A DNA stretch of 33,971 nucleotides, taken from positions 1-33,971 of the IMG/VR virus record IMGVR_UViG_3300038825_000257; one strand, given 5' to 3'. The stretch comes from a virus. Positions 1,515-26,635 of this stretch are shown piece after piece; position 1 is the first letter of the stretch; every line of letters begins with the position of its first letter. The notes beneath the pieces were generated by a model. It was not told the origin of the DNA, ran no database searches, and saw only the letters and a program-made list of their open reading frames with translations. The position numbers and the translations under genes are program-made.

Positions 1515-1567
1515 GAGTGAGGTTTTATTTTTATGTAGAGGGGTTAGCTCACTCCTTTCCTCTCTAC
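1515..1567 (+). promoter_or_regulatory. Predicted H-type RNA pseudoknot upstream of the SSB-like gene
   Basis: Two interleaved stems fit this leader. Stem 1 pairs GAGTGAG (1515-1521) with CTCACTC (1548-1554), 7 bp. Stem 2 pairs GTAGAGGGG (1535-1543) with CCTCTCTAC (1559-1567), 9 bp with one G-U. The 3' arm of stem 1 lies inside the loop of stem 2, which makes a pseudoknot. It ends 7 bases before the AAGGAG ribosome binding site (1575-1580) of the SSB-like gene. No U-tract follows, so a terminator is unlikely. T4 gene 32, another SSB, is autoregulated through a leader pseudoknot; the parallel is inference. Confidence 0.55.
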
Positions 1568-3122: not shown

Positions 3123-3872
3123 GTGAAAGCACATCAAAGACTAATTAGAGAAAAAATTAGTAAAGAAGAATCTCATGATTTGTTTGGTAAATATTGGGAA
3201 ACTATTAATATTGATATAAAAAAAGCAGAGGTTAAGCAAATTAGTTTAATAACTGCAAAAAAAATAATAGAAGAATATGAATGGTTAAAATGTTTACCTG
3301 CAATAACTAAATATCAATTTGGAATATTTTTTGATAATGTTTGTGGTGGAGTAGTTACTTTTTCGCCAGAATATATAGAAAATTTAGGTAGGTGGGATAA
3401 GTATAATTATACAGGTAAAATTTTATTATTAAGTAGAGGTGCTTGTGTTCATTGGGCTCATGAACATTCTGCTAGTAAGTTAATAGCTAAAAGTATTAAT
3501 TTATTACCAGAAAAATATAAAATAATTACTGCTACTGTTGACGATTTAGCAGGAGAAATAGGAACCATATACCAAGCGTGTAATTTTTATTATGTAGGCA
3601 GCATGAGAGATGCAAATCCTAATGTAAAAAGTAAAAAAGGAGATAGAGATGCTTGGATAATTAATAATAAATTATATGGTTCAAGAGCTTTGCGTCAAAA
3701 ATTTAAGACTACAAAATTAGAAGTTTTAAAAAAACATTATCCTAATATAAAAAAAGTAAAACAAAATAGTAAGGGCAGATATTTTTATTTTAGAGGTAAT
3801 AAGAAAGAAAAAAAGTATTATTTAAATTTTATTAAACATTTAATTCAACCATATCCAAAGAGGACAACATGA
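3123..3872 (+). CDS. Mom-like DNA-modification protein (GNAT fold)
   Basis: A 249-residue protein read from GTG 3123, with AGGGG 7 bases upstream. The conserved core runs from GIFFDNVCGGVVTF through LLSRGACVHWAHEHSASKLI and ITATVDDLAGEIGTIYQACN to FYYVGS. This is the pattern of phage proteins annotated as the Mom family, after phage Mu Mom, a GNAT-fold enzyme that converts DNA adenine to a carbamoylmethyl form and so blocks restriction. Candidate catalytic residues are Arg105, Asp140/141 and Tyr150, matching the Arg-Asp-Tyr order in Mu Mom. The C-terminal third is strongly basic, as expected for DNA binding. It sits in the replication block, consistent with modifying new phage DNA. Family placement is from memory. 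Confidence 0.7.
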   Translation: MKAHQRLIREKISKEESHDLFGKYWETINIDIKKAEVKQISLITAKKIIEEYEWLKCLPAITKYQFGIFFDNVCGGVVTFSPEYIENLGRWDKYNYTGKILLLSRGACVHWAHEHSASKLIAKSINLLPEKYKIITATVDDLAGEIGTIYQACNFYYVGSMRDANPNVKSKKGDRDAWIINNKLYGSRALRQKFKTTKLEVLKKHYPNIKKVKQNSKGRYFYFRGNKKEKKYYLNFIKHLIQPYPKRTT

Positions 3873-8516: not shown

Positions 8517-9021
8517 CAGTTACTATCTCCTCTTCTTTAACATTTTCTTTAACCCACTTATCATAATCAGGTCTTTTCTCTGGGTTTTCTGCCCAACCTT
8601 TTGCAGCTTCTAAGCCAATCTTTCCGTAATACGGACAAGGAGTTCCTGCCATTTCCATAGCTTGAAATATACGTTCATCTTGGCATAACATAGCAACTGC
8701 ACCAACTTTCATACCCATAGCAAATAATGCCCTAGATAATTTAAGCCTTTCACAATTTAAATCTCTAATAGCACCACCACCTGCTAAACCTAGTATTTGG
8801 GTTTGTAATGCAGCACTAGCAGCAAAACTACAGACATCTTGATTATTGATGACAACGCTTGGGGCAGACGCTGTAGAGGGAGTTCTATCTACTGTAGTTG
8901 TGCCACTTACTGTTGAACTTGTACTTGATACAGTATTCGTTTGTGCTTTTGCTATACTACACCAAGACAACCATGACAAGAAAAAAACTACAAATAATAT
9001 TGCCCATAATTTTCCTGTCAT
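8464..9021 (-). CDS. Secreted/membrane protein with C-terminal hydrophobic tail
   Basis: A 185-residue protein with a signal peptide (residues 1-26, ending IAKAQ), a Ser/Thr linker, and a Cys-containing domain (about 60-150) with AGGGAIRDLNCERLKLSRALF and MAGTPCPYYGK. It ends in a hydrophobic tail (LGIFSVLLILLFL). The tail is encoded in the same 53 bases that encode the signal peptide of the next gene in another frame. It overlaps the lysozyme gene by 4 bases. The product should be periplasmic, perhaps anchored by its C-terminus. The GG...RD..CE pattern is shared with unnamed marine-phage proteins. Function unknown. Confidence 0.7.
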   Translation of the reverse strand: MTGKLWAILFVVFFLSWLSWCSIAKAQTNTVSSTSSTVSGTTTVDRTPSTASAPSVVINNQDVCSFAASAALQTQILGLAGGGAIRDLNCERLKLSRALFAMGMKVGAVAMLCQDERIFQAMEMAGTPCPYYGKIGLEAAKGWAENPEKRPDYDKWVKENVKEEEIVTDESALGIFSVLLILLFL

Positions 9022-9482
9022 TCTTCAATCCAATCTCCTAATAACATCATATCTGATAGACGAGCACTTCTTCTTTTTGTTTGTCTTGCCCAATTACTAT
9101 CTAACATTTCTTTACTAGCTGTTCCATAATCTTCATTAGCTAACGCTGTAAACATTTTTGTCCACATAGTAGGATTAAAACGAGTTATACCCATATTAAA
9201 TGCCATATCTATTATTATAGCTCTGCGTGCTTCGTTTAAATGTTCTATTGGAAAGTTTTTAATTTCTTCCTCTACTCTTTCTATATCATTCATAAGCATA
9301 AATTCTGCTTCTTCTTGTGATATACCTAAACCATCTTTTGCTACGTTCCTGCCTACACCTATTGTTGGGTGTCCTATAAGGATATCGCCAGCTTGTAATT
9401 CTTGACCAGTAGCATCATCATATACTTTTAAAATTACGCCTTCATGGTTAGATAATAAATCTACTAATTTTTTTTTATCCAT
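9018..9482 (-). CDS. Endolysin, GH24 (T4-type) lysozyme
   Basis: A 154-residue muramidase. It has SNHEG near the start (catalytic Glu14), then YDDATG (Asp22/23), then HPTIGVGRN (Thr40), the Glu-Asp-Thr catalytic triad order of phage T4-type lysozymes. Length matches the family, with a longer loop between Asp and Thr. No signal peptide or SAR segment is visible, so export to the peptidoglycan needs a holin. It belongs to a lysis region that also includes a holin-like protein and a spanin pair further upstream in the operon. Confidence 0.9.
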   Translation of the reverse strand: MDKKKLVDLLSNHEGVILKVYDDATGQELQAGDILIGHPTIGVGRNVAKDGLGISQEEAEFMLMNDIERVEEEIKNFPIEHLNEARRAIIIDMAFNMGITRFNPTMWTKMFTALANEDYGTASKEMLDSNWARQTKRRSARLSDMMLLGDWIEE

Positions 9483-9902: not shown

Positions 9903-10262
9903 TTATACCCATGGTTCTTTAGGTCCATAACCAAAATAACTTCTAGCATGACCTTCTTCTATTAATTGCTCACATATATTAACACCTTCAACTAAAGGTA
10001 TTCCTAATATTCTGCCAAACTTACCTTTGCCATCTTTTTCTGTTTTTACAATAAAGGTCTTTGGCAACAACTCTTTAAGCCGATCCTTCGAAGCCAAACC
10101 CAACTTTTTTTCAGCCAAGTTTCTTGTTCTGCTTTCAGGCGTGTTAATTCCATATAATCGCACTCGTTCCTTCTGCAAGAACACTTTAAATCCCAAATCG
10201 ATATCAACATCTATTGTATCACCATCAATAACCCTTCGTAATATGCAACGATATTCGTACAT
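9903..10262 (-). CDS. Thermonuclease (staphylococcal nuclease family)
   Basis: A 119-residue SNase-fold protein. It has RVIDGDTIDVDIDLGF at residues 10-25, ERVRLYGINTPE with Arg35 and Glu43, and GKFGRILG with Arg84, the Arg-Glu-Arg catalytic set of this family. Asp40 of the staphylococcal enzyme is Asn here. There is no signal peptide, so the protein is presumably cytoplasmic. Related nucleases are common in marine phages and may recycle host nucleotides. It starts at a TAATG overlap with the lipoprotein gene, so its expression is late, with lysis genes. Confidence 0.88.
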   Translation of the reverse strand: MYEYRCILRRVIDGDTIDVDIDLGFKVFLQKERVRLYGINTPESRTRNLAEKKLGLASKDRLKELLPKTFIVKTEKDGKGKFGRILGIPLVEGVNICEQLIEEGHARSYFGYGPKEPWV

Positions 10263-10462: not shown

Positions 10463-10589
10463 CAGCTACCCTTATATCGTCTAATTGTTCTTTCATTACA
10501 TCAGCTTGGACTGCTTTCCGCATTAGCATAAATCCAAAAACTTTAGAAGCAAGTTTTGCGAGAGGACCTAATGCAGAAAGCCAACCCAT
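10383..10589 (-). CDS. Candidate inner-membrane spanin (Rz-like)
   Basis: A 68-residue protein with a hydrophobic N-terminus (LSALGPLAKLASKVFGFML), then a charged helical part (QADVMKEQLDDIRVADEVKKK) and a basic end (KLRKYRKRK). This matches small inner spanins: N-terminal anchor and periplasmic helix. It starts at a TAATG overlap with the holin-like gene, and the Rz1-like lipoprotein gene begins inside it. The anchor is weakly hydrophobic, so an amphipathic helix is possible. The role is inferred mostly from position and overlap. Confidence 0.55.
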   Translation of the reverse strand: MGWLSALGPLAKLASKVFGFMLMRKAVQADVMKEQLDDIRVADEVKKKINATTASAKRSKLRKYRKRK

Positions 10590-10783
10590 TATTTATCGTC
10601 CTTGTTTTTATTTTTTCCAATATTACCAGCAACTAAATTAAGTATGCGTAGTATAAAAGAAATTGCTTTATCGTCTGTTTTTGTAGGTGTTAGAGCTGTA
10701 ATCGCTGTTGCTGCTGTAACTAATGCTGTAATTGCACTAACCCAAGCAGGTGCTCCATCTACTAAGTTTAATATTGTGTCCAT
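10589..10783 (-). CDS. Holin-like small membrane protein
   Basis: A 64-residue protein with one clear membrane segment (about residues 12-32, [19 protein letters not shown]), a second hydrophobic stretch ([13 protein letters not shown], about 41-53) and a charged Lys/Asp tail (KNKNKDDK). Small size, one or two membrane spans and a charged C-terminus are typical of holins, and it directly precedes the spanin pair in a run toward the lysozyme. Holins share little sequence, so the call depends on features and context. Confidence 0.6.
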
Positions 10784-25678: not shown

Positions 25679-26635
25679 TTAGTTTTTAAGAACACATTGT
25701 CTTGCACGATTTGAAACAGTCATGTTACCTGCCCAAACTACTGGCAATACCATTGCGTCTTGGTTTACAGAAGCCTTCTCACCTAAAGGAGTAAATTCTC
25801 TGCCTTTAGCTGGACGAAGGAATAAATAGTCCGTATTCAACATATACATATGTGCGGAAGGACATTGATCGTCATAATAAACAGGTGCGTTCATAAACAT
25901 TAAGTTCATAAAACCAGCACTTGCACTATCATCACTTGTAAACCTTTGATTAGTTTGTAGTGATGCCCAATAGAATTGGAAATAAGTGCTATCTGCAACT
26001 ATGCAGTCAGGTTTGTCTGCTCCTCTGATTGTTGATAACCATGCAGTATTCATACCTGATTGTATATTAGTTGCTGATGCGTTTCCACCTGCTGAAGTTG
26101 AAAAATCATACACTTGATTTTGCCAGAAAGAATATGTACTAGCATTAATACCACCAACAGTATTAGTAGGAGTATCTGCAACTGTAAGTTGTAGACCACC
26201 TAAGTCTTTACCATTAGTTCCTGTTCCGTCTGCATACAATGAAGTTGCCATTGTATTTTTAAGTGTTTTTTCAAGATTTTTCACTCTTGATTTAAGTAGG
26301 TTAAATACTTGTTCTTTACCAGAGTTTTCTACTTGCTCTAGTCCAGAAATTACAACATTACCAGCTAATTGTTTATAATTAAACTCGGCTGCTGTAAAAA
26401 CACTACTTGTTGAAGTATCTAATACTTCATAGCCACTATACCATTTTGCAGTACTATTTGTTGCATATTCTAATTCTTGCACAATAGTTCTACCACCTGA
26501 TACAATTTTGTTGCCTTTTTCACTTATTGATTTAAGCAACGCATTATTGTTTGTGATATTGTCTGCCATTGTCCTGCTGTAATTAGCAAGAGTAGTGGTA
26601 ACAATATCTGTAAATGTACTATTTGGAGATGCCAT
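25679..26635 (-). CDS. Major capsid protein (HK97 fold)
   Basis: A 318-residue protein with SPNSTFTDIVTTTLANYS, MADNITNNNALLKSI, KIVSGGRTIVQELEYATN, KYS-GYEVLDTSTSSVF and a C-terminal FTPLGEKASV, then VLPVVWAGNMTVSNRARQ. These match tailed-phage capsid proteins of the HK97-fold type, with an N-arm, the TIVQELEY strand and a P-domain-like SGLEQVENSG. Position after the scaffold gene is standard. No delta domain or protease gene is seen, which is in line with a separate scaffold protein as in podoviruses. Confidence 0.82.
   Translation of the reverse strand: MASPNSTFTDIVTTTLANYSRTMADNITNNNALLKSISEKGNKIVSGGRTIVQELEYATNSTAKWYSGYEVLDTSTSSVFTAAEFNYKQLAGNVVISGLEQVENSGKEQVFNLLKSRVKNLEKTLKNTMATSLYADGTGTNGKDLGGLQLTVADTPTNTVGGINASTYSFWQNQVYDFSTSAGGNASATNIQSGMNTAWLSTIRGADKPDCIVADSTYFQFYWASLQTNQRFTSDDSASAGFMNLMFMNAPVYYDDQCPSAHMYMLNTDYLFLRPAKGREFTPLGEKASVNQDAMVLPVVWAGNMTVSNRARQCVLKN

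Follow-up and report, generated by a model that had tools for sequence, protein, structure and literature searches.

The exonuclease–SSB-like gene junction and its leader

The window analysed here is the whole stretch of 33,971 nucleotides that makes up positions 1 to 33,971 of the IMG/VR record IMGVR_UViG_3300038825_000257. On its + strand, a gene for a PD-(D/E)XK exonuclease of 267 aa (709-1512; Pfam PF12705, 1.8e-6; PHROG 298 'exonuclease', 3.9e-23) is followed by a gene for a 180-aa product resembling single-stranded DNA-binding proteins (SSB-like gene, 1587-2129). The neighbours of the latter (the exonuclease, a resolvase-like nuclease and a primase-helicase) form a recombination/replication cluster, which further downstream also includes a Mom-like DNA modification protein (3123-3872, + strand; Pfam Mom, 9.1e-23; PHROG 1384). 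Elsewhere in the window, a Staphylococcal-nuclease-like protein (9903-10262, - strand; PF00565, 7.6e-11) is encoded among - strand genes, near a phage lysozyme gene (9018-9482).

The initial annotation credited the 180-aa product with an OB-like N-terminus and an SSB-type acidic tip, and both features hold up. AlphaFold2 predicts a five-stranded N-terminal domain (pLDDT ~85 over most of residues 1-70), with an OB fold spanning residues ~1-75, then a disordered linker and C-terminal helices; the helical region at ~118-165 is conserved. Structural comparison of residues 1-76 with VIA-align gave as top match the baculovirus ssDNA-binding protein LEF-3 (Z 9.0 over 67 residues, rmsd 2.5), alongside RecO (Z 8.4) and many SSBs (Z 7-8), scores that for such a small OB domain indicate fold, not function. 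The protein ends in PDDKIPF, with an aromatic last residue, and its relatives have similar tips (EDDIPNNF, EDSF, GDSF, GNSY and the like), with one exception (DDGVL). The tip of Escherichia coli SSB is DDDIPF. The protein thus shares with the bacterial SSB family (PF00436) a predicted OB fold and a C-terminal tip (here DDKIPF), but it has no match to the PF00436 profile and carries an extra conserved helical region before the tip. It has no Pfam family, no significant PHROG match and no PDB sequence match, and 12 of its relatives gave no convincing Pfam family either. The PF00436 profile is absent from the window record and from six related ones, some of them incomplete, and does match control genomes. 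From the predicted fold, the tip, the neighbours and the lack of a PF00436 protein, we infer that the 180-aa protein is probably an SSB.

Between the two genes lie two interleaved stems, S1 (7 bp) and S2 (10 bp, including one G.U), all on the + strand. The exonuclease stop codon ends at 1512, 2 nt ahead of the S1 5' strand (a, GAGUGAG, 1515-1521), which pairs with the S1 3' strand (a', CUCACUC, 1548-1554). Loop 1 (GUUUUAUUUUUA, 1522-1533) comprises the 12 A/U-rich nucleotides that precede the S2 5' strand (UGUAGAGGGG, 1534-1543). Then come loop 2 (UUAG, 4 nt, 1544-1547), the S1 3' strand, loop 3 (CUUU, 4 nt, 1555-1558), and the S2 3' strand (CCUCUCUACA, 1559-1568). The A directly 5' of S2, which forms an AUG (1533-1535), and the CC directly 3' of S2 are invariant in the 19 leaders compared (19/19). 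A spacer of 18 nt with one UUAAA (1569-1586) separates the knot from the start codon (ATG, 1587-1589) and contains the Shine-Dalgarno (SD) sequence AAGGAG (1575-1580), to which a' together with the next CUU is complementary. The initial annotation had placed this structure correctly and given S1 its right length. It counted 9 bp in S2 and a gap of 7 bases to the ribosome binding site; S2 has 10 bp and the element ends at 1568, so that the knot does stop short of this site, at 6 nt from the SD.

When scored by the stacking energy of two interleaved perfect stems, the leader comes out on top of 1130 + strand segments of the window, and its score (-31.9) is better than those of 40 out of 40 dinucleotide shuffles (mean of the shuffles -18.0). 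Ordinary minimum free energy folding of the leader is unremarkable (z -1.8), and one - strand segment of the window (10512-10601) matches its pseudoknot score. For these two reasons the single sequence is no more than suggestive; the decisive support for the pseudoknot is comparative. The - strand segment falls within small - strand genes and holds an imperfect inverted repeat of 14 bp (GCUUUCUGCAUUAG x CUAAUGCGGAAAGC). Neither it nor another high-scoring segment (25981-26070, + strand) was retained as a copy of the element, because their stem shapes differ.

Covariation and conservation among related phages

We searched IMG/VR for relatives of the SSB-like protein by profile and pattern scans. 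The phages that carry the leader are an uncultured, mostly marine, AT-rich group, and the identity of their proteins to the window product goes down to 28%. Grouped by leader and protein, they form about eight lineages: A (the window, L004, L007 and L027), B (L008 and L010), C (L029), D (L049), E (L011-L022 and L032), F (L031, L034, L035, L040 and L122), G (L039 and L042) and H (L072, L086 and L087). The same S1/S2 topology was found in all 30 distinct leaders, from 48 loci with a full leader. All but one of the 30 beat their shuffles (p<0.02). The exception is L028 (2925-3015), whose SSB-like gene is interrupted by an in-frame stop at codon 6 and whose S2 has lost one pair (C.A), through either decay or sequencing error. 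In each of the 14 loci tested, the leader ranks first or within the top five pseudoknot segments of its own + strand.

The initial annotation had proposed covariation across related phages as a check, with its absence from either stem as a refutation; covariation proved strong in both stems. We aligned eight pairs per stem in 20 distinct leaders, leaving out of the block count L029, where the register of S1 is shifted (CAACAAGGA x UCCUUGUUG) and a 9-bp S1 is kept. Stem cells were paired in 93.4% of cases against 69.1% when partners were shuffled, double-sided changes affected 87 cells against 29.2, and the covariation score was 0.687 against 0.194; none of 500 shuffles, which ignore relatedness, reached the observed value of any of the three. 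Sliding the partner strand by 1-3 bases lowers pairing to 39-47%, in blocks delimited manually according to the proposed structure, a choice that favours the proposed register over slid ones. One S1 pair occurs as GC, AU, UA and CG, and S2 pairs show three or four Watson-Crick types. S1 is also more stable with its own partner (-14.8 kcal/mol) than with the partners of other lineages (-10.0 kcal/mol; 0/5000 permutations). Although the proteins of the window, L004 and L007 share 87-92% identity, their S2 sequences are almost wholly different, and these changes are therefore recent and repeated. The stem cells contain 13 G.U against 3 A.C, which indicates a + strand RNA. Together, these comparisons confirm that the pseudoknot is real.

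Outside the stems, some features are kept and others vary. The distance from the end of S2 to the ATG is 16-22 nt, mostly 17-18, across the 30 distinct leaders. The 12 nt before S2 (the loop 1 region) are 75-100% A+U in 19 of 19 leaders, and 10 of the 19 have a UUAG between the outer arms of S2. As read from the sequences, leaders of lineage E have an additional hairpin inside loop 2, and those of lineages F-H an internal loop within S2. Two pattern scans for S2-like hairpins found AT-rich two-stem leaders followed by an SD and a start codon solely before the SSB-like gene family. These comparisons show an RNA fold, its strand, its fixed position before the gene and, in the loci seen, its sole association with the SSB-like family.

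The SSB-like genes themselves can be mosaic. L008 (2916-3540) has a C-terminal half that hardly differs from that of the window, with a different OB half and leader, and L030 (49-528) joins the OB half and leader of lineage E to the C-terminal half of lineage F. The contig IMGVR_UViG_3300030116_002682 (62.9 kb) holds two diverged SSB-like genes (L031 and L042), both preceded by a pseudoknot leader of their own; instead of a single phage, this record may represent a joined bin.

Beyond this group, a tblastn search of 50,697 phage records returned no match to the SSB-like protein and three weak matches to the exonuclease, and no relative was found in prokaryote genome contigs. The named phages HTVC035P and Venkman have related terminases and give no comparable leader, because their annotated replication genes differ. 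Rfam has no match in the window or in 15 loci, so the element does not belong to a known family of that database.

Candidate functions of the leader

The best-supported reading is that the knot is a cis-acting translational operator of the SSB-like gene within the exonuclease-SSB mRNA. Most likely, at a probability we put at roughly one half, it is the operator of an autogenous loop in which the SSB-like protein represses its own synthesis. By analogy with T4 gp32, an OB-fold protein in excess of the available ssDNA would bind the knot, possibly recognising its structure together with the A/U-rich loop 1, the conserved AUG...CACC and the UUAG. Since no more than 16-22 nt separate the end of the knot from the start codon, the protein on the knot itself, or a few copies spread along the short A-rich spacer, would block 30S binding; abundant ssDNA would draw the protein away again, and translation would resume. 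With such a short spacer, direct hindrance of the 30S subunit is likelier than long cooperative spreading, and nucleation and spreading in the manner of T4 finds no direct support in the ~18 nt with one UUAAA that lie between knot and AUG. Leader and gene are adjacent, so their co-inheritance is no independent proof of an interaction. An OB-plus-helical fold alone does not seem to require a knot: gp54 of the Vibrio phage ICP2_2011_A (42260-42754; 164 aa) has an OB-like start, a G/S/A-rich linker and a helical end, and its leader shows no knot (p 0.28), if this protein, picked from a BFVD listing of a 164-aa ICP2 protein and linked to it by length and position only, is correctly identified.

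The pseudoknot could instead serve translational coupling, mRNA stability or another ligand. The first of these would make it a ribosome-coupled switch with no dedicated protein ligand, in which a ribosome terminating on the exonuclease gene opens S1. The S1 3' strand and loop 3 (ACUCCUU) would then pair alternately with the S1 5' strand or with the SD (AAGGAGU, 1575-1581), the freed anti-SD strand lowering SSB translation, or the two genes would be coupled in some other way. The geometry suits this: in every lineage measured, the S1 5' strand starts close to the exonuclease stop, between 23 nt inside the gene and 6 nt past its stop codon, where a terminating ribosome would presumably cover the strand. 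In the window, the complement between a' and the SD is perfect (7 bp, -12.0 kcal/mol against -13.2 for S1), and a pairing of 4-8 bp is possible in all lineages. Yet this pairing does not covary, being as strong with the SDs of other lineages (-9.95) as with the own one (-9.97), which led us to reject an anti-SD switch as the main explanation. It also falls to 4 bp in lineages E and H and in L035, so that the match may simply follow from a GGAG-like S1 strand. We regard the coupled switch as rather unlikely. Little weight goes to a combination of a ribosome-read switch with a protein operator, in which S1 would be held open, and access to the SSB start altered, by ribosomes that complete the exonuclease or initiate at the AUG at the base of S2; the S1 5' strand is SD-like in most lineages. 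If it were true, translation traffic and SSB feedback would jointly set the ratio of exonuclease to SSB. That AUG does not seem to start a leader peptide, since the frames that it opens are 1-31 codons long (just AUG-UAG in the window) and encode no common peptide in 19 leaders. In one leader of lineage E (L014, 2889-2993), a small ORF (MEQLINKYGG...) extends across the entire pseudoknot as far as a TAATG at the SSB start; its frame is not kept in L012.

A role in mRNA processing or stability, again with no dedicated repressor, would have the knot shield a processed SSB mRNA at its 5' end or block exonucleases. A stable structure directly upstream of the ribosome binding site within a polycistronic mRNA is consistent with this, and the T4 gene 32 mRNA is unusually stable (PMC3014915) and, going by the reference list of the same paper, processed by RNase E. 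A simple hairpin would be enough for this purpose, yet conservation extends to both interleaved stems, to the AUG...CACC flanks and to the distance from the ATG, and we consider the explanation unlikely. H-type pseudoknots also act as ribosomal-protein operators and as riboswitches, and the conserved unpaired bases could form a binding site for a small molecule or for some other protein, be it a ribosomal protein of the host or one of the phage. Such a ligand is improbable for an element that stands solely before the SSB-like gene family in all loci seen, and most of whose stem bases are free to vary, unlike those of small-molecule aptamers. The position within a replication and recombination gene cluster would suit a DNA-level element, such as an origin or a single-strand priming structure; the tolerance of G.U above A.C (13 against 3) and the nearly fixed distance to the start codon make this very improbable. 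Two other RNA signals were rejected: an intrinsic terminator, as the sequence after S2 (CCAAAUAAGG) lacks a U run, and a frameshift signal, as no slippery site was seen ahead of S1 and the downstream gene is equipped with an SD and an ATG of its own.

Relation to known operator pseudoknots

In the E. coli rpsO/S15 and alpha operon/S4 systems, operator pseudoknots at the translation start bind the encoded protein, include the SD or AUG, and trap the 30S subunit. The leader described here resembles them in being a pseudoknot at a translation start, for which binding of the encoded protein is proposed, but it ends 6 nt before the SD. The closest parallel in phages is the gene 32 operator of T4, T2 and RB69. 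The gp32 proteins of T4 and RB69 bind leader pseudoknots and repress their own translation, and that of T4 nucleates on the knot, from which it spreads along a UUAAA-rich leader (PMC535899, PMC3014915). In both cases a pseudoknot lies in the leader of a phage gene for an OB-fold ssDNA-binding protein (predicted, in ours) and is followed by a less structured region that contains the ribosome binding site, and the stem sequences diverge among relatives. There are also clear differences. The H-type leader pseudoknot is present here, whereas a gp32 homologue is absent: the SSB-like protein has no sequence relation to T4 gp32 and falls outside its family. Our knot is found where the preceding cistron ends and not at the 5' end of the leader, its loop 1 is A/U-rich and 12 nt long, and there are unpaired bases between the stems. 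In T4, more than 40 nt with UUAAA/UAAA repeats follow the knot (PMC535899), an element absent here, where 16-22 nt separate knot and AUG. Finally, autorepression is established for the T4-type operator and proposed by analogy for ours. The STAXI motif (RF01728) is likewise a pseudoknot near ssb and other DNA-handling genes, but it consists of two or three knots in tandem, has UUCG loops and is listed for Enterobacteriales, near various genes (PMC2864571), whereas ours is a single knot, has no Rfam match and is always the leader of one gene.

The element thus lies outside the T4 gene 32 operator family, given the unrelated protein and the short spacer, while it seems to work in a similar way; it looks like a solution reached independently and like a new family of RNA. 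The T4-type knot has been described as perhaps the sole viral pseudoknot in translational autoregulation, and RB49 lacks it (PMC3014915). We found no later phage case of pseudoknot autoregulation in the open-licence literature. Standing before an unrelated SSB-like phage gene, this covarying knot would be a second case, evolved independently, and it makes directly testable whether ssDNA-binding proteins tend to evolve pseudoknot operators. The new RNA family also marks, in AT-rich uncultured phages, the SSB-like gene, whose protein has no database name. That the knot is kept although its letters have changed completely suggests that it controls the production of the SSB-like protein, as a different knot does in T4.
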